DNA from: Pseudomonadota bacterium
GTDB lineage: Bacteria > Myxococcota_A > UBA796 > GCA-2862545
DNA: 64,000 nucleotides
Assembly (NCBI GenBank): GCA_023954855.1
Contig: JAGSGY010000014.1
Location: forward strand, 1-64,000
Reading direction: 5' to 3'
Shown: positions 3,625 to 15,912 of the stretch, piece by piece
Layout of the letters: every line of letters begins with the position of its first letter
Position numbering within the stretch: position 1 is the first letter of the stretch
Translations under genes and position numbers: made by a program
The notes under the pieces: generated by a model
What the model was told of the DNA's origin: nothing
Database searches by the model: none
The model's input: only the letters and a program-made list of their open reading frames with translations

Positions 3625-5355
3625 CTAGGCGCGGAACTCGATCGGAAGCTCGCCCTCTTCGGTGGGCTCCGGCTGCAGGCCGAAGCTGTGCACGGCCTCC
3701 TCGATGCTGTGGAAGATGCACTCTTCGCCGATGTGATCGAGGGTTCCGCTGGCTTCCATGATGTCGTGGAGCGGGCCGGAGAGCTCGGCGATCAGGAGTG
3801 CCGTACCGGCTTCGTGCAGCTCGTCCGCGATCTGCTCCAGCACTTCGAGGGCGGTGGCGTCGAGGTCGTTCACGGCGATGAAGTCGAGGATGATGCCTTC
3901 GGGCACGTCGGGGTGCTCGTTCGAGGCGTGCTCGACGGCATCCTTGAGGACCGGTGCATTGGCGAAGTACAGCGACTCGTCGATGCGCAGGATGATGACG
4001 TCGGGGTCGATTCGCGCATCGGGGTGACGGCGGATGTCGCGGTAGTGCGTGGTTCCCGGCACCCGACCCAGCGTCGCGATGTGCGGCGTGGACGTGTGGT
4101 GCAGGTGCAGGGCAATCGAAGTGGCAATACCCGACAGGATGCCGATCTCGACGCCGAACAGCAGCGTGAGGATGAAGGTCACGCCGAGAGCGAAGGCATC
4201 GTAGTTGCGGAAGCGCAGCAGGCGCAGCGGCTCGCGGAAGTCGATGATTCCCGCCACGGCAACCATGATGATCGCAGCCAAGGCGGGCTTCGGCAGGTAG
4301 GTGAATGCGGGCGCGAACCACATGAGCGTCAGGAGTACGACCGAGGCCGTGAAGCCGGCGGCGAGCTGGGTGCGTACCCCCGCCTGAGCGGCCACAACCG
4401 TGCGGCTGATGTTGCCGGTAGAGACGTAGGCGCCGAACAGACCACCCACCAGGTTGCCGATGCCGATCGCGGCGAACTCACGGTTTGCATCGACATCGTA
4501 GCGGTGCTTGAAGCCGTAGGTCTTTGCGACGCTGATCGACTCCATAAAGCCGACCAATGCGATCGCGACCGCGTGTGGCATGAGGGCCTTGAGCATGTCG
4601 GTGCTCGGAAGGACGGGGAGCATCGGCGTCGGCAGGCCAGAGTCGAAGGCGCCGACGACTGTGACGCCCTTCGCCTCGAAGCCCAGAGCGACGCTGGCGA
4701 TGGTGCTCACCACCACGAGGAGGAACGCGGCTGGCGCCTTCGGAGCGAACTTCTTGAGGAGGATGAGGACCGAGATGCAGGCGATGGAGACGCCAACGGT
4801 CAAGGGATGCGCGTTGGGTAGTGCCCAGATCGCGTCGCCCAGCACGTGGAAGAAGTCGCCCTGAGGGATGGAAACGCCGAGAGCGAGTGAGAGCTGGGAT
4901 GCAGCGATGATCAGGGCTGCGGCGGACATGAAGCCGTTCACGACGGGTCGAGACAGCAGGTTGACCATGATGCCGAGGCGCATGACGCCGAGGCCGAGCT
5001 GAACCGCCCCGACCATCATCGCGAGTAGGACCGCGAGGGCAACCCAGAGCTCGGATGCTTCGGCGGCCTCGGGTGCCACCATCTGCACGGCTTGCGCGGA
5101 CATCAACGAGATGAGTGCGGCGGGGCCGACCGACAGCTCACGGCAGGTGCCGAGCATGAGGTACAGCGTCATCGGCACGACCGATGCGTACAAGGCGACC
5201 TGGGGAGGCACCCCCGCGAGCAAGCCGTAGGCGATGGCCTGCGGAATGATCATCACGGCGACCGTGAGGCCGGCCTGGGCGTCGCCGCGCAGGTCCTCTC
5301 GGGTGTAGCCGCGCAGAACACCGAGGACCGGAAAGAGTTGCTTGAGCCACGTCAT
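3625..5355 (-). CDS. SulP family anion transporter with STAS domain
   Basis: The 576-residue product is a SulP-type permease, a family that moves sulfate, bicarbonate or other anions. The N-terminal 400 residues hold about 12 hydrophobic segments with family motifs: IPQAIAYGLLAGVPPQ, a conserved SVGPAA segment, and FMESISVAKTYGFKHRYDVD before GNLVGGLFGAYVSTG. A cytoplasmic STAS domain occupies about residues 430-560 (IILRIDESLYFANAPVLKD, IILDFIAVNDLDATALEVL). It is the last gene of the five-gene operon and its ATG overlaps the preceding GTPase stop as ATGA. Its link to the GTPases is unexplained. The transported anion cannot be read from the sequence. Confidence 0.9.
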   Translation of the reverse strand: MTWLKQLFPVLGVLRGYTREDLRGDAQAGLTVAVMIIPQAIAYGLLAGVPPQVALYASVVPMTLYLMLGTCRELSVGPAALISLMSAQAVQMVAPEAAEASELWVALAVLLAMMVGAVQLGLGVMRLGIMVNLLSRPVVNGFMSAAALIIAASQLSLALGVSIPQGDFFHVLGDAIWALPNAHPLTVGVSIACISVLILLKKFAPKAPAAFLLVVVSTIASVALGFEAKGVTVVGAFDSGLPTPMLPVLPSTDMLKALMPHAVAIALVGFMESISVAKTYGFKHRYDVDANREFAAIGIGNLVGGLFGAYVSTGNISRTVVAAQAGVRTQLAAGFTASVVLLTLMWFAPAFTYLPKPALAAIIMVAVAGIIDFREPLRLLRFRNYDAFALGVTFILTLLFGVEIGILSGIATSIALHLHHTSTPHIATLGRVPGTTHYRDIRRHPDARIDPDVIILRIDESLYFANAPVLKDAVEHASNEHPDVPEGIILDFIAVNDLDATALEVLEQIADELHEAGTALLIAELSGPLHDIMEASGTLDHIGEECIFHSIEEAVHSFGLQPEPTEEGELPIEFRA

Positions 5356-6422
5356 CGAGAGGGGAGACTTTCCTGTGCAGCGCGCAGTAATAGCCGTTGC
5401 GAGTCGGTTTGGGCAGCGCGGCGTGCGAGTGCGGGCTCGAGGTGGTCCGTCTGCCAGTCCAAAAGGGCCATATCGCCGTCAGAGAACCACTGGGCTGTCG
5501 CGGCGGTCACGGCACGCTTGGCTGCAGCCTGACCCCCCATCCCGGCAATCAGGGCGTGGATGGGGCTCTCGTCGGTGGCCTCCAGCTTCGGGAACTGGGG
5601 CGGGCGTACGCCGTGTCCGTCGAGGAACGGGTCGTGTTCCAGGGCATGTCCGACGTGTGTGCGGGCCCGGTGCGCTGCACGCTGGACGGTGGCCAGCGCG
5701 GTGGTGGCGTCCGCAAGGGTGCCGCTCTTCACATCGGCCAGCACGGCATCTCGGACGGAGTGGGCCGTCGAGCGCCAGGCTCGCCGCAAGTCGTGGAGGA
5801 AGGCGGTGCTGTCTGGCGGGCCAGGGAGGGCCGCGATGGCACGCTCGAGCGCGTCGTGCATCTGGGCGATTCGCGGCGAGGAGGGCAGTTCGGTGGACGT
5901 GAGTGCGTCGGGGATCGGGTCCGTGCGGAGGTCGAGCGCAATGATTGATGCGGCTCCGGCGTGAAGCCGGTGGACTCGGGCGAGGACGGCGTCACGCTCC
6001 TCGGGTTCCAGCAGGTCAGCGCGACCGACGATGACGTGTACGGGCGTGTGCTCGGGAAGAAGCTCGGTGACCACTTGACGTTCTGAGGCGGTCGAGGGCG
6101 CTCGACCGTCGAGCACCCAGATCACCGCGTCGGCCCGCTGTAGAGGGGCTGCCAAGATCGCGCGGGCGATGCGGGTGTCGTCAATGCCTTCCGTGTCGAG
6201 CACGACGCAGCGCGAGCCGTAGAGTGGCTGTACGCCGCGCGTGACGCCGCCAAGCCCTGTCGGAGCGGCTTGCTCGGTGAGTCGGTTCGCCAGGGTCGTC
6301 TTGCCCACGCCGGTCATGCCGACGATGGCCACGGTGTAGGGGGCCGTCCACGCGGCGCGCAGGGACTCCGCGTCGTCGCCCATCGTGTCGAGGGCGCTCG
6401 CGAGCGCGTCGGGAAGGCTCAT
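5352..6422 (-). CDS. Era/dynamin-like small GTPase domain protein
   Basis: The 356-residue protein has a G domain in its first ~190 residues: P-loop GMTGVGKT (35-42), DTEG (76-79, standing in for DxxG) and GRAD (133-136) where NKxD is expected. The last departs from consensus, so guanine specificity may be weak. The second half is helical with no clear membrane span. It overlaps the dynamin-like gene upstream and the SulP gene downstream by 4 bases each, so translation is probably coupled. It may act as a regulator or partner of the dynamin-like proteins; this is inference from context. Confidence 0.75.
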   Translation of the reverse strand: MSLPDALASALDTMGDDAESLRAAWTAPYTVAIVGMTGVGKTTLANRLTEQAAPTGLGGVTRGVQPLYGSRCVVLDTEGIDDTRIARAILAAPLQRADAVIWVLDGRAPSTASERQVVTELLPEHTPVHVIVGRADLLEPEERDAVLARVHRLHAGAASIIALDLRTDPIPDALTSTELPSSPRIAQMHDALERAIAALPGPPDSTAFLHDLRRAWRSTAHSVRDAVLADVKSGTLADATTALATVQRAAHRARTHVGHALEHDPFLDGHGVRPPQFPKLEATDESPIHALIAGMGGQAAAKRAVTAATAQWFSDGDMALLDWQTDHLEPALARRAAQTDSQRLLLRAAQESLPSR

Positions 6423-8416
6423 GTGTGAACCGTCGTGTCGAGGCCGGTCATGGCGTCGTCGAGGGCCTCTTCGATGGCGTCCCAGCTGGCGGCGCGCTTC
6501 TCGGCGTCGTCGGCAGCTTCGCGGCGGGCGGTAATCGTGGTCGTGAGCAATTCCTTGAGCTCTTCGGCGTCCGAGCGGGCCGCGGCGACGACCGCCTCTC
6601 TTAGGGGCTGCAGCGCCTCGACCACCTGCGCTTCGACGGCCTCGCGCTGGGCATCTGCATGGGCGACCAGGCCTCCGCCCACTTGGTCGGCGAACACCCG
6701 GCGGAGCCGTCGAAGCTGCCCCCCACCGGTGCGCAAGACCAGCAGCAGATCGACCGCGGCGTACATCACTAGGCCGGCCCAGCCGACGGGTCCAAGCAGC
6801 GCGCCCATCGCGACGAGCGCGACCCGAGCGCCAATCCGGCCTGCGGCACCCTTCAGCGCGCCTTCATAGCCGTCGGTCCATGCAGCAGCGATAGTGCCCG
6901 GAGAGAGCAGGGCGGCGCCGACGGCCACCGAGAACCAGCGCTCGAGCGGGTCCATGGCCTCGGCCTCGGTCTGGGGACTCGGCAGGGCCACATGGGCGCC
7001 CGCGAAGCCGTCGAGGATGGCGTCGGTCACGCTGTCGAACTCTCGCGCCTCCGCGGCTAGCTCCACGCGGAGGTCGTCGAGGGCCGCCGTGAGCTTGGGC
7101 CGAAGGGACTCGCGCCAGGCATCCATCTGATGGGCGAACCAAGTCTCCAAGCCTTGCTGCAGCGCAGCCTCGGCCCGCGCTCGGCCGGCACTGGTGAGCA
7201 GGTCCAGGCCTGCCAGGCCGGGCAATTCCATGTCGGCGATGGCGTCTGGCAGACCCTCTTGGAGCGAGACCAGGTGCGTTCGTAGGTCTTGCCAGACCCG
7301 TACTTTCTGCCGCTCGATGAAGTGGGCCACCGTGCGGTCGACGCGCACAGCCACGCGTTCCAGCTCGTCGAAGCGGGGACCAAGCTCGGCTTGGCGGGCT
7401 TCGAGTTCTTCGACCGAGGCCGCTGCACTCGCGCGATCGAGCTGGGCTTGGCGGCGCACTGAAGTGCGGGCGTGCGCGGCGGCTCCGTAGAGGCGCTCGA
7501 GCTGGGCACGGCCCCGCTCGTCGACCAAGAAGTCGGTCAGGGCGTCCTCGAACGGCTCAAAACCGGAGGCTTCGAGGCTGTCGCCGGAGGCTCGCGCCTT
7601 GAGCGCACCGCGGGCGTCGAGCAGGAAGAAGCGGTCGTCGAAGCGGTCCCTTTCGTCCACGATGGTGAGCGGTGCGAGCTGCTCGCGTGCACGGACTCGA
7701 ATGGCGTGCCGGGCTTGGTCCGCGTCGGCAGCCACGTGGGTCAGCAGATCGGCCATCGTGACCGGGAAGAACAGGTTCGACAGGCCTAAAGGCAGCAGCT
7801 GCTCGCGAATCGTCTGGCGCTCGAGCTCGGTGAGAAAGCGGAGGGCGTTGAGGACGACAATCACCGCATCCGCGCGCGGGAGCATGTCCAAGGTGCGAGC
7901 GGTGCGCTGTGGATCGTCGTCGAGCCCAGGGGTATCGACAAGGACCACGCCCTTCGCGAGCAGGGGCAGCGGGACGTGCACGACTGCGCGGTCGACCTTG
8001 CCGAAGCGGTCGGCGACTTCCCGTCCGGCCTCTGAGACATCGTCTGCGGCCAGTTGGTAGGTCTCGAGGAAGTGCTCCGTGGACATGCGCTCGACCGCAC
8101 CGTCCACCCCGTGGACGTCAACGACGGGCTCGGTCCCGTGCACCAACTCGGTCAAGATGGCGGTGCATGGATTCACCCGAACCGGCAGCACGGGCTCACC
8201 GACGATGGCGTTCAGGAGCGTGCTCTTTCCCGTCGAGAAGGCACCGACCAACACCACGTGAAAGCGGTTTGCGCGCGCGCGGGTGGCGGCAGCGCGAAGC
8301 ACCTCGGCTGCGGCGATGGGGCTCGGTGCGGCGTCGAGGCTGTCCGCCATGGCCTCGACGTGATCGGCCGCGGCCGTGCGGCGGGCGGCAAAGCGCTCGA
8401 GCGCTTCGGTGCTCAT
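6419..8416 (-). CDS. Dynamin-like GTPase with membrane hairpin
   Basis: I choose ATG 8416, giving 665 residues, because it forms an ATGA overlap with the upstream stop; the frame extends further but that part is a shadow of the upstream gene. The G domain has P-loop GAFSTGKST (58-66), switch Thr in NPCTAI (about 85), DTPG (161-164) and TMAD (220-223). A long helical stalk follows. A strongly hydrophobic hairpin at about 530-561 (VALVAMGALLGPVGWAG and on) resembles the membrane-inserting tip of bacterial dynamin-like proteins, and a coiled-coil tail ends the protein. The expected role is GTP-driven binding or remodelling of a membrane. Substrate membrane and process are unknown. Confidence 0.88.
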   Translation of the reverse strand: MSTEALERFAARRTAAADHVEAMADSLDAAPSPIAAAEVLRAAATRARANRFHVVLVGAFSTGKSTLLNAIVGEPVLPVRVNPCTAILTELVHGTEPVVDVHGVDGAVERMSTEHFLETYQLAADDVSEAGREVADRFGKVDRAVVHVPLPLLAKGVVLVDTPGLDDDPQRTARTLDMLPRADAVIVVLNALRFLTELERQTIREQLLPLGLSNLFFPVTMADLLTHVAADADQARHAIRVRAREQLAPLTIVDERDRFDDRFFLLDARGALKARASGDSLEASGFEPFEDALTDFLVDERGRAQLERLYGAAAHARTSVRRQAQLDRASAAASVEELEARQAELGPRFDELERVAVRVDRTVAHFIERQKVRVWQDLRTHLVSLQEGLPDAIADMELPGLAGLDLLTSAGRARAEAALQQGLETWFAHQMDAWRESLRPKLTAALDDLRVELAAEAREFDSVTDAILDGFAGAHVALPSPQTEAEAMDPLERWFSVAVGAALLSPGTIAAAWTDGYEGALKGAAGRIGARVALVAMGALLGPVGWAGLVMYAAVDLLLVLRTGGGQLRRLRRVFADQVGGGLVAHADAQREAVEAQVVEALQPLREAVVAAARSDAEELKELLTTTITARREAADDAEKRAASWDAIEEALDDAMTGLDTTVHT

Positions 8417-9741
8417 GCCAGCTCCTTCAGACGCTTCACAGTGCTGTCGAGGTGTGCGTGCTGTGCGACGAGTCTGGCATGGGCGACCTCGAGCTCGGCT
8501 CGGAACGCGTCCTGGCTGCGTGCGGCGGCCTCCGTGCGTTCGTCCTGAAGTTCCGCCTGTTCGGCGGCCATGGCCTCGATCTGCTCGTTGAGGACGCGCT
8601 CGGCGTCGCGACCCATTCCGCGTAGTGCCTCGCTCGCGCCGTCGATGAGCGCGTCGCGGGTGTCGGCTTCGTCCTTGTCCCCTGCCCATGTTGACCAGGC
8701 AAAGCCACTTCCGACCGCGAGCAGGGTCGGAACCCAGAGGCCTGCAGCGGCCAACAGTGCTGCGCCGCCGAGTGCGGCGGTCATGGCCAGCCGTCGCCCC
8801 CAGCCAGTCTCGCGAGTAAACGGGGGCGGGTGGAGTGTCGGCAGCAAGAGCTCGGCTTGATCGGTGGTCTCAGCGTCGACCTCGAGCTCGGCGAGATCCG
8901 CGAGCACCGCCACACGCCAGGTCGACAAGCCTTGGTCCAGAGCAGTGTCGATGACGTGTTGCAGCCAGTGCGGAAGGGCACGGCGGGCGAGGTCCAGGTC
9001 GTCGACATCGTGCAGCTGTGCAGGCAGGTCTTGTTCGACGCGGACCAGCAGATCACGGACGTCGATCAGCAGCTGCTCGGTGTGGCGGCGCATGGCGGCC
9101 AGTACGTGGGCGGCCACACGAGCTGCGTCGCGGCGTGCGCGTTCGAGCGCTTCGTCTTCCTTCTCGGTCAGCGTCGCCACCTGCGCCAGCTCTGTCCTGA
9201 CGGAGTCGGCCTGCTGATCGAGCTTCGCGAGAGCGCCGTCGATCAGCGTGCCCGCAACCTGCTGGGTCCGCTGTGCTCGGAGCTCGTCATTCGGCGTGAG
9301 TGAGGCGTCGAGGGGCCAGTTCTCGGGAAGAAGCTTCGCGATCCGGGCCCTGATCTCCTCCGCCTCGGTGGCCGGGTCGTCTGAGATGCGCGCGAGCAGA
9401 TCGCGGTCGGCGAGGACGACGCTGCGGTGCTCCGGCGCCGTGGTCAGCGCATCGAGCAACTCGCGTTCCGCCGAGGGAAGGGGAGCGTGGGCGGGGGTGG
9501 CCCAAATCACCGCGTGGACGCTGAGCAGGTCGTCGAGCAGCCCGAGCGAGACCTCCGTCACCTGCCTCGCGTCGATGAGCCAGGTCGCGTCCTCGAGGTC
9601 GTCAGCAAGTCGACGGGCCACCGCGGCGTCGCGCGCCAACACCAGCAAGCGCAGTGGGCCGGCCAGATCGCGTCGTGATGTGCGCCAGATCGCCGCCGCA
9701 CCGGTCTCGCCGGCCGCGAGCAGGGCTTCTTCGATGCTCAT
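8413..9741 (-). CDS. Dynamin-like partner protein lacking a P-loop
   Basis: The start at ATG 9741 gives 442 residues and an ATGA overlap with the gene upstream. The N-terminal ~130 residues look like an alpha/beta domain with the strands of a G domain (LRLLVLARDAA, ATWLIDAR, HAVIWATPAHAP, RSVVLADRDLL), but no GxxxxGKS/T, DxxG or NKxD motif is present. A helical stalk follows, then two hydrophobic segments (about 325-360: LAMTAALGGAALLAAAGLWV and TLLAVGSGFAWSTW) and a C-terminal coiled coil. The layout mirrors its neighbour. I infer a degenerate dynamin-like subunit, possibly a hetero-oligomer partner. No named family is claimed. Confidence 0.65.
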   Translation of the reverse strand: MSIEEALLAAGETGAAAIWRTSRRDLAGPLRLLVLARDAAVARRLADDLEDATWLIDARQVTEVSLGLLDDLLSVHAVIWATPAHAPLPSAERELLDALTTAPEHRSVVLADRDLLARISDDPATEAEEIRARIAKLLPENWPLDASLTPNDELRAQRTQQVAGTLIDGALAKLDQQADSVRTELAQVATLTEKEDEALERARRDAARVAAHVLAAMRRHTEQLLIDVRDLLVRVEQDLPAQLHDVDDLDLARRALPHWLQHVIDTALDQGLSTWRVAVLADLAELEVDAETTDQAELLLPTLHPPPFTRETGWGRRLAMTAALGGAALLAAAGLWVPTLLAVGSGFAWSTWAGDKDEADTRDALIDGASEALRGMGRDAERVLNEQIEAMAAEQAELQDERTEAAARSQDAFRAELEVAHARLVAQHAHLDSTVKRLKELA

Positions 9742-10649
9742 GCGACACCCAGCAGCGCGGCGGTCGCTTCGTTCAGCGCCTCGGTCGAGAGAAGCTCCTC
9801 GCCGACCGGTGTGCCACCCGCATCGGCGAAGGCTTGCGAGCGTGCGAACAGCTCGAGGGCGCGGATGCGCTTGTGAAGCCATGGGGCGCTCGAGAGCACC
9901 TCGGTCCACCGCCCTGGTTCCTGGTCGGCCCCCATCGCTTGGCGCTGGCGCACGAATTCTTCAGGATCGACGTCGGGGCGCGTGGCGAGCGCAATGCGCA
10001 GAAGGGCGGTCGATGCATCCTCGACGCTGTCGCAGCAGAGCAGCCCGGCCCGGTCAGCGGTGACCTCGGCCGCGCGATGCCAGCGCGACAAGCCAAGGCG
10101 TGCGCCGAGGGAGAGGGGGGCGAGGACGAGCTCAAGGGCCGGGCCGACGTTGCGGCGTGCGACGCGACGCAGGCCATCGTGATCGACGATGAGCGCGTAC
10201 AGCGTTCCCCAGGTGACCTGGTGGGCGTCGATGTGACCGCACAGCCGGCCGGCAATGAAGCGACGCTGGCCCTCGGTAGCCCCGGCAAAGAACAAGGAAG
10301 ACAGCCGCAGGGTCGGCCGAACATCGGTCCCAAAGGTGCCTTGGGACGCACCGCCACATCCGCTGACGATGGCGGGAGGAACGGCGATTCCGAGGGTGCG
10401 CGAGGCATGCAGCACGTCCCGATACGCCTCGCTCATCGCATTGGGCCCGGCATAGACACCGTCGACGAGCCACTCAGCACGCTGCAGCGAGACCACGGTG
10501 TCGAGGATCTCTTCGAGCCGATCGGTCAGTGCACCGGCCGGAAGCGTCGGCGGACCGGTCGGATGCGCGTAGGCCACCGGACCTGGACTGCGTCGGGCAG
10601 CCCAAGTCGAGGCGAAGTCGGCGAGCGAGGGATAGTCGAGGTCGTGCAT
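9738..10649 (-). CDS. M48-like metallopeptidase homologue with degenerate active site
   Basis: ATG 10649 gives 303 residues, first in the operon. The layout matches the M48 (HtpX/Ste24-like) peptidase core. The distal motif is intact: SRWHRAAEVTADRAGLL (188-204), with Glu195 where the third zinc ligand belongs. At the HExxH position, however, the sequence reads GRLCGHIDAH: residues 135-139 are Arg-Leu-Cys-Gly-His instead of His-Glu-x-x-His. The first zinc ligand and the catalytic Glu are therefore missing and the protein is probably not a protease. There is no signal peptide. Tight coupling to the dynamin-like genes suggests a structural or regulatory role, which is inference. Confidence 0.7.
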   Translation of the reverse strand: MHDLDYPSLADFASTWAARRSPGPVAYAHPTGPPTLPAGALTDRLEEILDTVVSLQRAEWLVDGVYAGPNAMSEAYRDVLHASRTLGIAVPPAIVSGCGGASQGTFGTDVRPTLRLSSLFFAGATEGQRRFIAGRLCGHIDAHQVTWGTLYALIVDHDGLRRVARRNVGPALELVLAPLSLGARLGLSRWHRAAEVTADRAGLLCCDSVEDASTALLRIALATRPDVDPEEFVRQRQAMGADQEPGRWTEVLSSAPWLHKRIRALELFARSQAFADAGGTPVGEELLSTEALNEATAALLGVA

Positions 10650-10695: not shown

Positions 10696-10896
10696 ATGAC
10701 GCTTACGTACACTGTGACTGGGATGACCTGCGGCGGCTGCAAGGGTTCCGTGGAGCGCGTCGTCAAGCGCGTCGCGGGCGTTGAGGACGTTCGCGTCGAG
10801 CTCGAGACGGGTGCGGTTGAAGTGGATGGTGCCGCCGATCGCGCCGCCGTCATCGCCGCGATCGAGAAGGCCGGCTTCGGAGCGCAGGCCGCCTAA
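10696..10896 (+). CDS. Heavy-metal-associated (HMA) domain chaperone
   Basis: The 66-residue protein is a single HMA domain, the ferredoxin-like fold of CopZ-type copper chaperones. The metal-binding loop reads GMTCGGCKGSV, with CxxC at residues 11-14. The rest fits the beta-alpha-beta-beta-alpha-beta pattern and ends IEKAGFGAQAA. The start at ATG 10696 is set by a strong GGAGGAGGG just upstream; an in-frame ATG 27 bases earlier lacks this. It diverges from the M48-like gene with 46 bases between start codons. The expected role is cytosolic Cu(I) (or other soft metal) transfer; no P-type ATPase partner is in the window. Confidence 0.9.
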   Translation: MTLTYTVTGMTCGGCKGSVERVVKRVAGVEDVRVELETGAVEVDGAADRAAVIAAIEKAGFGAQAA

Positions 10897-11313: not shown

Positions 11314-12300
11314 ATGGCTCATTACCCTTCGCTTCGTCCCCGCCGTCTCCGCTCTGGACCGGGAATTCGCGCCCTCGTACGCGAGACGAGCCTGAGCCCC
11401 GCCGACTTCATCCAGCCCTTCTTTGTTCAGGACGGTGAAGGGGCCGACGAGCCGATTGCCTCGATGCCAGGGCAGTCGCGCCTACGCCTTCCGACCTTGC
11501 TCGAGCGCGCTGCGGAGGCCTACGAAGCCGGAGTGCCGGCCATCGCGGTGTTCCCGAAGATTGCCGATGAACACAAGTCCTACCGGGGTGACGCCGCTTG
11601 GGATGACGACGGTCTGGTGCCGCGTGTCGTGCGTGCGCTGAAGAAACAGCTCCCCGATCTCTTGGTGATCACGGACGTGGCGCTCGACCCTTACTCCTCG
11701 CTCGGCCAGGACGGCATCGTGCGGGACGGCAAGATCCTCAACGACGAGACCATCGAAGCCCTCGTGCAGCAGGCCGCCTGTCAGGCCCGTGCGGGCGCGG
11801 ACTTCGTGGCCCCTTCGGACATGATGGATGGGCGAGTGGGCGCGATTCGCGACCGGCTCGACGCCGATGGCCACGCGGACACGATGATCATGGCCTACTC
11901 GGCCAAGTACGCTTCATCCTTCTACGGACCCTTTCGCGATGCACTGGACTCTGCGCCTCGTGGTGGCGCCGACAAGCGCACCTACCAGATGGATCCCGCC
12001 AATACGAACGAAGCACTGCTCGAGGTTGAGCTCGATCTGCTCGAAGGCGCGGACATGGTGATGGTCAAGCCCGGCATGCCCTACCTGGACGTACTCTGGC
12101 GCGTGAAGGAGCAGTTCCAGCGGCCCACCGCGGTCTACCAGGTCTCTGGGGAGTACGCGATGTTCAAGGCCGCAGGCCAGAACGGATGGATTGATGAGCG
12201 CGCGTGCGTGCTCGAAGCGCTGCTGGGCTTCAAACGCGCCGGTGCCGACGCCATTCTGACCTACTACGCGACCGAGGCCGCCGGCTGGCTGAACGACTAG
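11314..12300 (+). CDS. hemB: Delta-aminolevulinic acid dehydratase (porphobilinogen synthase)
   Basis: The 328-residue enzyme condenses two 5-aminolevulinate molecules to porphobilinogen in haem biosynthesis. The Schiff-base lysines are Lys198 in YSAKYASSFYGPFR and Lys252 in MVKPGMPYLD. The segment that binds catalytic zinc through Cys residues in the E. coli enzyme here reads TDVALDPYSSLGQDG with no Cys, matching the magnesium-type enzymes such as that of Pseudomonas. The start has GGAGG 7 bases upstream. The stop codon shares a CTAG with the stop of the convergent metalloprotease gene, leaving no room for a terminator. Confidence 0.97.
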   Translation: MAHYPSLRPRRLRSGPGIRALVRETSLSPADFIQPFFVQDGEGADEPIASMPGQSRLRLPTLLERAAEAYEAGVPAIAVFPKIADEHKSYRGDAAWDDDGLVPRVVRALKKQLPDLLVITDVALDPYSSLGQDGIVRDGKILNDETIEALVQQAACQARAGADFVAPSDMMDGRVGAIRDRLDADGHADTMIMAYSAKYASSFYGPFRDALDSAPRGGADKRTYQMDPANTNEALLEVELDLLEGADMVMVKPGMPYLDVLWRVKEQFQRPTAVYQVSGEYAMFKAAGQNGWIDERACVLEALLGFKRAGADAILTYYATEAAGWLND

Positions 12301-13745
12301 CGTCGCCTCCGCATCGCGATCAGCGGAAGCACGAATCCAAACGCCGAGAACGGGCTGCTTGTGCATCCGCAGGCCCGCGGCTCTTCCTCCTCGACCACGG
12401 GTCGGTCCACCACGAGGGAATAGGTGTAGGTCGAGGTGTAGTCATCGGTTGCCGCGCGTGGCGAGACCACGAGGTGAACGTCGGTGAGCGCCGCAATGCC
12501 CTCGGTGTTGTACACCTCACCGACGGGGATCGGGATCTGCACCGCCTGACCGTTGTCGCGGGCTGAGATCGCTGCGAACCATGCGTCGGGCGTGGACTGT
12601 GGGGTCACGAGAATCGAGACGTCGGCACCGGTGTCGAGCGTCCACAAATTCGCCCCGAAGGACTGCGGCGGATGGTCCGGAGCGGCCGTCACTCGGTCCC
12701 CACCCCAGGCTAGCGTTCCCTGCAGGCGGTGGTCGTCTGCACCCCCCGACCAGTCGTCGTAGACCAGCTCGTAGACGTCGCCTTCGGGGAAGTCCCAGGT
12801 GGGTAGACGGCTGGTGTAGTCGTCGTGCATCGCTCCAATCGAGGTGCCGTGCTCACCGAGCAGGTCGTCGAGCACGAGCAGGGGATCTCCATACGGTGGC
12901 GCCTCGACCCATGAGCGCCTCACAATGTCGCGGTCCTCGGTCAGCGTCGTCATGTGGCGCACGAACACCGCGGCGCCGTATTGGTGGTAGTCGGCCCACG
13001 TGTCGTTATCGATGTCGCCAAAGGTGCCGACGTTGAGCTCCGGGAGCAGGAACACGGAGGGGGTGTTCGTCGAGTTGCTCGGCTTGGTTCCGCGGATCTC
13101 GGTCTCGGCCCAGGATGCGGTCGCTTCCCAGTACCAGCCGCCTGCGCCCGCGTAGTCGTAGGTGTCGATGACGCCCTGGAGTGCGTGAAAGAACTCGTGC
13201 GCCGCGAGGTCGTCGGCCCAGTCGACATCGGTGAGCGCGAGTCGCTCGAGGACAATCTCCGGGTAGCCCTCGCTGTCGTACCAGAAGTAGCCGCCGTAGC
13301 CCGCAGCGCTGGGTGATGGCGCGCCGGTGTCGCCGATGTAGATGTTGAAGCGGTAGGTCGTCGAGTGCTCCGGTGGTGGGTAGCCCCAGTTCACGACCTC
13401 CTCCGCCCAGACGGCCTCAAACGAGTCTGCAATCCGTTGGATGTCGGCGGTGTTGACGGTCGTGTCGTCGCCCCACTTCACCGCGAAGTTGTCGGTCTCG
13501 AGCACGTTCGTCCATGTGTCGAGCACGTCCCGGGTGACCTTGGTCGAGCCTGGCGGGGGAGTGGGCGTTCCTCGATGAGGCGCAACGACCGGAAGACCGT
13601 GGCGAGCGAGGACGTCTGGGCATGCCGAGCGGGCACGGAGAAGGGTCGACGTGCTGCAGCGCTCAGCTGACGGCTCGCTCAGCCACGCCTCCAGGGCGTC
13701 ACAGGAGGGGGCGGCGAAGGTCGCGCTGATGAGCATCCAGAGCAT
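12297..13745 (-). CDS. Secreted HExxH metalloprotease-like protein with MYXO-CTERM-like tail (copy 2)
   Basis: The 482-residue protein starts with a short signal peptide (MLWMLISATFAAPSC). A zinc-peptidase motif AHEFFHALQG lies near residue 190, and a downstream WYWEATASWAE gives a candidate third Glu ligand, as in gluzincins. A beta-rich region with VVSPRAAT-type strands follows. The C terminus is RACGCTSSP, a short hydrophobic stretch and RRRR, a MYXO-CTERM-like sorting tail that suggests processing and surface anchoring. It is the second gene of a tandem pair, 27 bases after its paralogue, with GAGGGA before the ATG. Its substrate is unknown. Confidence 0.8.
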   Translation of the reverse strand: MLWMLISATFAAPSCDALEAWLSEPSAERCSTSTLLRARSACPDVLARHGLPVVAPHRGTPTPPPGSTKVTRDVLDTWTNVLETDNFAVKWGDDTTVNTADIQRIADSFEAVWAEEVVNWGYPPPEHSTTYRFNIYIGDTGAPSPSAAGYGGYFWYDSEGYPEIVLERLALTDVDWADDLAAHEFFHALQGVIDTYDYAGAGGWYWEATASWAETEIRGTKPSNSTNTPSVFLLPELNVGTFGDIDNDTWADYHQYGAAVFVRHMTTLTEDRDIVRRSWVEAPPYGDPLLVLDDLLGEHGTSIGAMHDDYTSRLPTWDFPEGDVYELVYDDWSGGADDHRLQGTLAWGGDRVTAAPDHPPQSFGANLWTLDTGADVSILVTPQSTPDAWFAAISARDNGQAVQIPIPVGEVYNTEGIAALTDVHLVVSPRAATDDYTSTYTYSLVVDRPVVEEEEPRACGCTSSPFSAFGFVLPLIAMRRRR

Positions 13746-13772: not shown

Positions 13773-15269
13773 TCAGAGTTTCTCGGCTCCGTCACGGCCT
13801 TGTCGACGCCGTAGGGCGAGCAGCGGGAGCACGAACCATCCCAATGCACCCCCACCCGTCGAGCAGCCGCAGGCGACGGGAAGCTCGAGGTCAAAGCCGG
13901 TGTCTGGCGGCTCGAAGTCGGCGGGCGCCACGGTGAGCGTGTAGGCGTAGGAGGTCGTGTAGTCCGCGGTGCCTCCGATGGCCGAGACCACCAAGTGCAC
14001 GTCACTCAGGTTCGCCATGTCTTCGGTCGTCACGGTGGTTCCATCGGTCGGGAGTGCGATCTGCACGCCCTCGCCGTCGCGCATCCCCGAGAGGGTGAGG
14101 TGCCAGGCCGTGGGAGCGCTCGTGGGCGTGAAGGTCACTTGCACATCCGAGCCGGCGGTCTGCAGACGCCACAGATTCACGCCGTAGGCCTGTGGTGGGT
14201 GTGCGGGGGTGACCGTCGCGGGCTCGGCGACCACGGTGAGTGTGTCCTCGATGCGGTGTCCGCCCTGCATATCCGAGTAGGGGCGGTAGGCGGCTTCGTA
14301 GATGTCCCCGTCCGGGAAGTCCCAGGTCGCCATCCGGCCCGCGAAGTCGGTGTGGGTTTCTTCGAGCGTCGTTCCGTGCTCTGCGAGCAGGTCGTCGAGC
14401 TCAAGTAGCGGATCGCCTCCGCGCGGTGCCTCGAGAAAGGACCTGCGAATCATCTCGTCGTCGCCAGCGATCTCGCTCAGGTGCGAGATGAAGATGAACG
14501 CACCGTACTGGTGGTACTCCTGCAGCGAGCCCTCGTCGGGGTAGTCGAAGAAGCCGACGTTGAGCTCGGGGAGCAGGGCAAAGCCAAACAGAAAGCCGGC
14601 ATTGCTCGTCGTCGTGCCGAACACCTCGGTCTCGGCCCAGCTCGCTGTAGCCTCGTAGTACCAAGCGCCGGCGCCGTCGTATTGGTAGGTGTCGATGGCG
14701 CCCTGGATGGCGTGAAAGAACTCGTGGGTGGCCACGTCGCCGGCCCAGATCTCGTCTTGGAGGGTGCCGCGGTTGATGACGATCAGCGGGTAGCCCTCGT
14801 TGTCGTACCAGAAGTAGCCGCCGTTCCCCTGCGCACTCGGTGCGAGCCCGCCGGTGTCGCCGATGTAGACATTGAAGCGGTAGGCAGAGCTCTGTTCGGG
14901 AGCGGGGTAGCCCCAGGCAACGACCTCCTCGGCCCAAGCGAGCTCGAAGGCGTCGGCGATTTTCTGCACGTCCTCGGTGCGTACGGTGCCGTCGCTTCCC
15001 CACTTCACGGCGAAGTTGGTGGTCTCGATCAAGTTCGGCCAGGTCTCTTCGACATCGCGCGTGATCTTGCCCCCCGGAGGCGCGGGAGGTCCCCCTCGCA
15101 TCGGCGTCACGACGGGAAGACCGTGTGCGGCGAGCACGTCGGGGCAGTGCGCACGGGCGGCGTGGAGCAGTGGCGTGCCGCAGTGGCCCGGCTCATCGCG
15201 CGTCAGGGCCTCGTCGAGCGCGTTGCAGTCTGGGGTCGCGAACGCGGCGGCGAGCAGCATCCAGGTCAT
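13773..15269 (-). CDS. Secreted HExxH metalloprotease-like protein with MYXO-CTERM-like tail (copy 1)
   Basis: ATG 15269, preceded by AGAGGA, gives 498 residues; the frame is open further upstream but MTWMLLAAAFATPDC is the signal peptide matching that of the paralogue. The two proteins align throughout, for example NFAVKWG, EEVVAWGYPAPE, YRFNVYIGDTG and NGGYFWYD. The zinc motif is THEFFHAIQG and the following Glu-bearing motif is WYYEATASWAE. The tail is VACGCSTGGG, a hydrophobic stretch and RRRQGR. A PPDTG segment precedes the tail. The pair probably arose by duplication. Secretion and surface anchoring are inferred from signal peptide and tail. Confidence 0.8.
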   Translation of the reverse strand: MTWMLLAAAFATPDCNALDEALTRDEPGHCGTPLLHAARAHCPDVLAAHGLPVVTPMRGGPPAPPGGKITRDVEETWPNLIETTNFAVKWGSDGTVRTEDVQKIADAFELAWAEEVVAWGYPAPEQSSAYRFNVYIGDTGGLAPSAQGNGGYFWYDNEGYPLIVINRGTLQDEIWAGDVATHEFFHAIQGAIDTYQYDGAGAWYYEATASWAETEVFGTTTSNAGFLFGFALLPELNVGFFDYPDEGSLQEYHQYGAFIFISHLSEIAGDDEMIRRSFLEAPRGGDPLLELDDLLAEHGTTLEETHTDFAGRMATWDFPDGDIYEAAYRPYSDMQGGHRIEDTLTVVAEPATVTPAHPPQAYGVNLWRLQTAGSDVQVTFTPTSAPTAWHLTLSGMRDGEGVQIALPTDGTTVTTEDMANLSDVHLVVSAIGGTADYTTSYAYTLTVAPADFEPPDTGFDLELPVACGCSTGGGALGWFVLPLLALRRRQGRDGAEKL

Positions 15270-15318
15270 GGCATCCTCTGCATGGTGGCCAGCATGCCCG
15301 AAGCACGGGCCTGTCGCG

Positions 15319-15912
15319 TCAGGAAAGCGTGGGACGCCGAAGGCCCGTCCCCTGGCCATCGAGTCGGTGAAGCAGGTCGTCGATGAGCTGCAGGGTCAGC
15401 CCCCAGAGCATCACGTCGTCGAAGTCGACCTTGGGAAGCTCGACGTCGTTGCCCTGCCATTGGAAGGTGAACGACGAGCGTCCTCGGCCCTGCAGCAGAT
15501 GGGCGACGGGAAGGGTGTGGATGCCAGCGACCTCGGAGGCTTCGAGCTTGAGGTCCCCGTAGTCCTCGACCGCGAAGACATAGGGCCGGACGAGCATCTG
15601 GACGGGCCGCTTGGTGGCGACGTCGTCGAGGCGTCCGAGCAGGTCGGCATTGGACAGATCGAGTCCCACTTCTTCGACGGTCTCGCGGCGCGCGGTGTGC
15701 AGCATGTCGAAGTCGGTGGGGTCTCGACGACCACCGGGGAAGGACAGATGGCCGCTCCACGGGTCGCGTTCCCTCGTGGCTCGACGAATCAGCAGAAGGT
15801 CGAGGTCCTTGTTCAAGATCGCTGCGACCGCCGCATCTCGCTTGTCGTCGAGGGTCGGCGCGGTGAACGGCTCGCGAGCCAGGGCTTGTCGTATTCTGTC
15901 GAGGGTGGGCAC
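15319..15912 (-). CDS. Nudix hydrolase, CoA pyrophosphatase type
   Basis: The 197-residue protein has the Nudix fold and resembles NudL-type CoA pyrophosphatases, which split CoA or its thioesters to 4'-phosphopantetheine and 3',5'-ADP. The Nudix box runs SFPGGRRDPTD to RRETVEEVGLD; the spacing, one residue longer than the standard box and with GGxxDxxD, is that of the NudL group. The catalytic Glu cluster REtvEE is intact. The start is GTG 15912 with a weak ribosome site. It diverges from lepB with 44 bases between starts. Exact substrate is inferred from the family. Confidence 0.85.
   Translation of the reverse strand: MPTLDRIRQALAREPFTAPTLDDKRDAAVAAILNKDLDLLLIRRATRERDPWSGHLSFPGGRRDPTDFDMLHTARRETVEEVGLDLSNADLLGRLDDVATKRPVQMLVRPYVFAVEDYGDLKLEASEVAGIHTLPVAHLLQGRGRSSFTFQWQGNDVELPKVDFDDVMLWGLTLQLIDDLLHRLDGQGTGLRRPTLS

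Follow-up and report, generated by a model that had tools for sequence, protein, structure and literature searches.

A five-gene operon in the 64,000-nucleotide stretch of DNA analysed here (the window) probably encodes a heterotypic dynamin machine, in which a dynamin-like GTPase is joined by an inert dynamin subunit and by a protease turned binding partner. Genes A, B and C, generally with D, form a cassette conserved beyond chance, and this cassette is a descendant of a wider M48-dynamin gene pair of the phylum, in which the M48 metallopeptidase is usually intact. The M48-dynamin module is a broader find than the five-gene operon. The five genes, their minus-strand orientation and the four junctions between them, all proposed in an initial annotation made from the letters of the DNA, are reproduced at the same coordinates, as are the P-loops that it saw in two of the proteins, C and D (Table 1).

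Table 1. Genes and gene junctions of the operon.
Feature	Coordinates	Strand	Description
Gene A	9738-10649	minus	303 aa; degenerate M48 metallopeptidase homolog; HExxH site = RLCGH; third-ligand region AEVTADRAG kept
Gene B	8413-9741	minus	442 aa; P-loop-less, predicted dynamin-like: pseudo-GTPase head, long helical stalk, hydrophobic tip
Gene C	6419-8416	minus	665 aa; BDLP-type dynamin-like GTPase by sequence; P-loop GAFSTGKS, DTPG; hydrophobic segment ~532-561
Gene D	5352-6422	minus	356 aa; small TRAFAC-type GTPase, C-terminal helical part; P-loop GMTGVGKT
Gene E	3625-5355	minus	576 aa; SulP-family anion transporter with STAS domain
A/B ATGA overlap	9738-9741	minus	sequence
B/C ATGA overlap	8413-8416	minus	sequence
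C/D ATGA overlap	6419-6422	minus	sequence
D/E ATGA overlap	5352-5355	minus	sequence

At each of the four A-E junctions the start ATG and the preceding stop share the 4 bases ATGA. Elsewhere in the window junctions of this type are found at 4 of 24 other same-strand neighbour pairs (by a rough gene call), so that four consecutive overlaps mark one tight operon while being nothing odd in themselves. Gene A is the first gene of the operon, since a CopZ-like metallochaperone gene (10696-10896, plus strand; 66 aa, GMTCGGC motif, NF047957 match below the cut-off) runs the opposite way from 10696, separated by 46 bases from the start of A at 10649.

Conservation of the cassette was followed through the window's family, whose members are uncultivated and are recorded mainly as MAGs labelled Deltaproteobacteria, Proteobacteria or Myxococcales. 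Taken with the MXAN_6640-like proteins of the window, these labels suggest Myxococcota as the phylum. Against the genome contigs a single-sequence query of C gave no match, and an alignment query of C recovered mainly the window's own family. Orthologs of C (40-73% identity) are present in 11 of 20 other family genomes searched, and A-B-C occur in this order, mostly with 4-base overlaps, in eight other family genomes (L031, L032, L033, L035, L036, L038, L039, L040). Gene D lies directly after C in L031, L032, L038, L039 and L040 (4-base overlaps or gaps of at most 17 bases) and at a greater distance in L033 and L036, so that it follows A-B-C in seven of the eight; no D was found at the L035 locus. 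Three short contigs (L034, L037, L041) carry only a partial cassette, and in L034 some 2 kb separate B from C. The initial annotation had taken the lack of this gene order in any related genome as grounds for abandoning its reading, and the order it described is in fact kept for A-B-C and largely for D, while E follows in L031 alone. About half of the family genomes are without the cassette, which is thus dispensable. One such genome (L043, 4608-11965) has an M48 gene (HELGH) and three consecutive dynamin-like genes with P-loops. When the window is compared with L031, A and E both have a dN/dS of 0.18, which for A indicates purifying selection on a dead protein; the value is 0.26 for B, 0.21 for C and 0.39 for D. 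D, the least conserved cassette member by this measure, is also the one that lies apart from C in some genomes.

The wider M48-dynamin pair emerged among relatives of A: of 284 genomes of the phylum, as sampled by the search tool, 112 have relatives recovered by its profile. The gene neighbourhoods of 112 M48 proteins were read, and as the genomes were so sampled and this protein set was fixed by an E-value cut, the linkage counts are those of this sample. A quick tree built without the motif columns splits 67 of the proteins from the other 45 (SH-aLRT 100) with A inside the clade of 67, its exact placement being unsure owing to a long-branch warning around the window's clade. In 64 of these 67 cases the M48 gene is adjoined by a dynamin gene of like orientation, which in nearly every case lies downstream; two of the three unlinked members (L144, L163) sit at a contig end and the third (L153) is apparently a real exception. 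Outside the clade, dynamin linkage is seen in 2 of 45 (L045, L136). Most members of the clade retain HExxH. The motif is lost in 17 of the 112 proteins, all of them inside the linked clade, namely the nine of the window's family and a second group of eight (L141-L144, L146, L149, L206, L214), and parsimony gives at least two loss events. The initial annotation is supported on the cassette and overlooked its descent from the wider M48-dynamin pair.

Some of these loci carry further genes. At L141, L143 and L206 a pseudo-M48 gene and the dynamin gene after it are adjoined by a second dynamin of ~940-970 aa, which in L143 has N-terminal TPR repeats, and at L116, L118, L119 and L124 the M48-dynamin pair is preceded on the same strand by two genes, one for an FHA-type coiled-coil protein (classified by eye) and one for another conserved protein. 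Among Bacillota M48 loci, three of nine (L220, L229, L230) adjoin a dynamin; none of 20 cyanobacterial M48 loci has one inside 1.5 kb flanks, and no dynamin is annotated alongside the M48 relatives on three plasmids. We found no description of an M48 and bacterial dynamin pair in the open-access literature searched.

By sequence, C is a BDLP-type bacterial dynamin-like GTPase. Its Dynamin_N domain (94.9 bits) carries the P-loop and DTPG motif, and a helical neck and trunk with a hydrophobic tip are indicated by Dynamin-like_hel_bact (PF21808, 74.4 bits), by a full-length profile match to Nostoc punctiforme BDLP1 (2j68, E 2.9e-84) and by the hydrophobic segment. All 12 orthologs retain the P-loop and D-T/S-P-G, and at E 0.001 C has a single match in the window's genome. 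While C shares with BDLP1 its full length, P-loop, DTPG and hydrophobic tip region, it differs in its G4 motif, which is TMxD. We know of no M48 or P-loop-less partner gene described with BDLP1.

A role in anti-phage defence, with the cassette related to the LeoA/LeoBC (Eleos) dynamin systems and acting on membranes upon phage infection, appears unlikely. Both are bacterial operons with dynamin-like GTPases, the cassette is patchy within the family, and the PADLOC LeoBC and LeoA models match C (1.7e-11 and 7.2e-11) and, weakly, D. However, these matches are partial, covering only part of C, and reflect general dynamin homology, A and B have no PADLOC match, and entire families of the phylum carry M48-dynamin pairs, which is a better fit to a chromosomal cell-biological role. 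To our knowledge no M48 or P-loop-less subunit belongs to LeoA/LeoBC.

B is dynamin-like in its predicted fold and is not classed as a dynamin GTPase. It passes no Pfam cut-off, and the P-loop (GxxxxGK[ST]) is absent from B and its family orthologs, leaving the protein without the signature of GTP binding. In hhalign the B profile aligns collinearly with that of C (97%), from the G4 region onwards and into the helices, and with the GTPase domain of D from β1 (96%), compared with 0.2% for a SulP control, the E-values of B being those of single pairwise comparisons of helix-rich profiles. The head of B is shortened, and like C the protein has a hydrophobic segment where the tip would lie. An AlphaFold2 model was built from nine family sequences (pLDDT 77.6, low only near the hydrophobic tip). 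Only dynamins are among its significant Foldseek matches, with IniA, Cj-DLP2, BDLP and LeoA ranking highest (3e-6 to 2e-4), and VIA-align superimposes it on Cj-DLP2 (5owv_C) over 365 residues (Z 10.5, rmsd 4.8). Global Foldseek TM-scores against dynamins lie at only about 0.2-0.4, which we take to reflect differing hinge angles, so that the assignment of head, stalk and tip to a dynamin fold relies on element order and local structure in the model. Profile comparison and predicted fold thus agree with the P-loop-less dynamin-like partner of the initial annotation, which would have given way had the 442-residue protein proved unrelated to dynamin folds.

It is improbable that B instead arose from a D-like small GTPase, or is an unrelated Rossmann-like domain with long helices. 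The collinearity with D and the low TM-scores would fit such an origin, as would the VIA-align comparison of the head alone, for which septin and EF-Tu GTPase domains score as high as dynamins. Against this, B passes from its head through long stalk helices to a hydrophobic tip and back by a returning helix, as bacterial dynamins do, the Foldseek matches include no other fold at significance, and the B protein of L040 is recovered directly by the C profile (9.5e-11). Convincing B-type matches are confined to the window's family within the 284 phylum genomes. The B profile gave nothing significant in hhalign against the L045 zinc-ribbon protein, the L043 middle dynamin, the L047 second dynamin or L044, with the SulP control equally low, and as no significant counterpart was found outside the family we do not claim an ancestral dynamin for B. 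The L045 locus (5893-10467) has a layout resembling A-B-C, with an intact HELGH M48 carrying a zinc ribbon, then a P-loop-less zinc-ribbon protein and then a P-loop dynamin; its middle protein has no recognisable homology to B. A search of the open-access literature found no description of bacterial dynamin pseudo-GTPases.

A is assigned to the M48 family by its sequence and predicted fold. The match to Peptidase_M48 (PF01435) is weak yet passes (24.5 bits, cut-off 20.3). For the AlphaFold2 model the best VIA-align matches include 3c37 (Z 10.3), BepA (Z 9.4), ZMPSTE24 and HtpX; Foldseek gave nothing below E 0.001, with M48 folds nonetheless ranked first. The intact relatives of A are, like A itself, M48 proteins by Pfam and fold and are closest to HtpX models, but A and these relatives fall below every NCBIfam HtpX cut-off, the relatives far below, and differ from HtpX and other M48 peptidases in their link to dynamins and, in the window's family, in the loss of HExxH. 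That loss, which bears out the degenerate M48 of the initial annotation, extends to all nine family members (RLCGH, RSMGL, QVMGA, RACGE, RLLGP or QQLGH), while relatives from the same taxonomic order retain HECGH or HELGH. No intact A paralog was seen in the window's genome at 1e-15, where the A profile has one match. A peptidase whose catalytic residues have moved, or which uses a different metal site, would account for the third-ligand Glu, retained in seven of the nine, and for the well conserved C-terminal half, but it is very unlikely given six different replacements of the motif in nine members and no new invariant His/Glu set there. The retention of a gene whose HExxH is gone argues that the function kept by A is binding, for which the B-C assembly is the candidate partner.

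Of the two remaining genes, D matches MMR_HSR1 (42 bits) and the C profile (hhalign, 98.6% probability). E is a SulP protein (TIGR00815, 445.3 bits against a cut-off of 380.45; Sulfate_transp and STAS domains); it adjoins D in L031, the single congener examined, and nowhere else among family loci, no SulP match being present at the remaining family loci read (some on short contigs). A recent, lineage-specific addition of E to the operon is the best explanation. The membrane-stress machine tied to anion transport that the initial annotation put forward is most improbable, because the D/E overlap and the adjacency in one congener are set against the family loci read that gave no SulP match, which leaves its anion-transport half weak.

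In the heterotypic machine that we favour, C would be the working membrane GTPase of BDLP type, and B, its nucleotide binding lost, would supply a stalk and membrane tip. B and C should co-assemble into mixed oligomers, by analogy with Cj-DLP1/Cj-DLP2, in which GTP cycling would be carried out by the C heads alone, while D, a second GTPase, could switch recruitment or assembly. Most bacterial dynamins occur as operon pairs, and Cj-DLP1/2 of Campylobacter (5owv, 5oxf) co-assembles and tethers membranes (PMC6104087). The two adjoining dynamin-like genes and the match of the B model to Cj-DLP2 parallel that system; in contrast to B, both Cj subunits have P-loops, and both P-loops are required for GTP turnover (PMC6104087), so a one-sided B-C pair would work differently. 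A would derive from the M48 protease whose gene accompanies dynamin genes throughout the phylum. This protease is intact in most lineages, where it probably clips or clears the neighbouring dynamin; in the window's family, with the catalytic motif gone, A may have been retained to bind the B-C assembly.

The genetic linkage, taken with mitochondrial OMA1-OPA1, suggests dynamin cleavage by the intact M48 proteins. OMA1 is active and cleaves OPA1 (PMC8027119), and the likeness, an M48 protease coupled to a dynamin, is an analogy of arrangement only, from which the window's M48 departs in being degenerate. We put forward tentatively, as one possibility, that the phylum has a dedicated M48-dynamin module whose protease controls the dynamin by cleavage in an OMA1-OPA1-like manner, that at least two lineages turned the protease into a non-catalytic regulator, and that in the window's family this coincided with the loss of enzyme activity from a dynamin subunit. 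The operon bears on the regulation of bacterial dynamins and on the reason for their pairing. One working and one dead subunit would separate the structural role of a dynamin subunit from its GTPase role, and the natural active-site losses suggest a role for M48 proteins beyond cutting. A conserved M48-dynamin pair would also offer a tractable bacterial setting in which to ask if the control of dynamins by proteases predates mitochondria or extends beyond them.

Finally, the window contains tandem paralogs on the minus strand (12297-13745 and 13773-15359) that resemble MXAN_6640 putative metalloproteases below the cut-off and carry an HEFFH motif. They also show weak similarity to the Svx/AvrXca model, and their Cys-Gly-Cys...Arg-rich C-terminus has the appearance of a MYXO-CTERM sorting tag.
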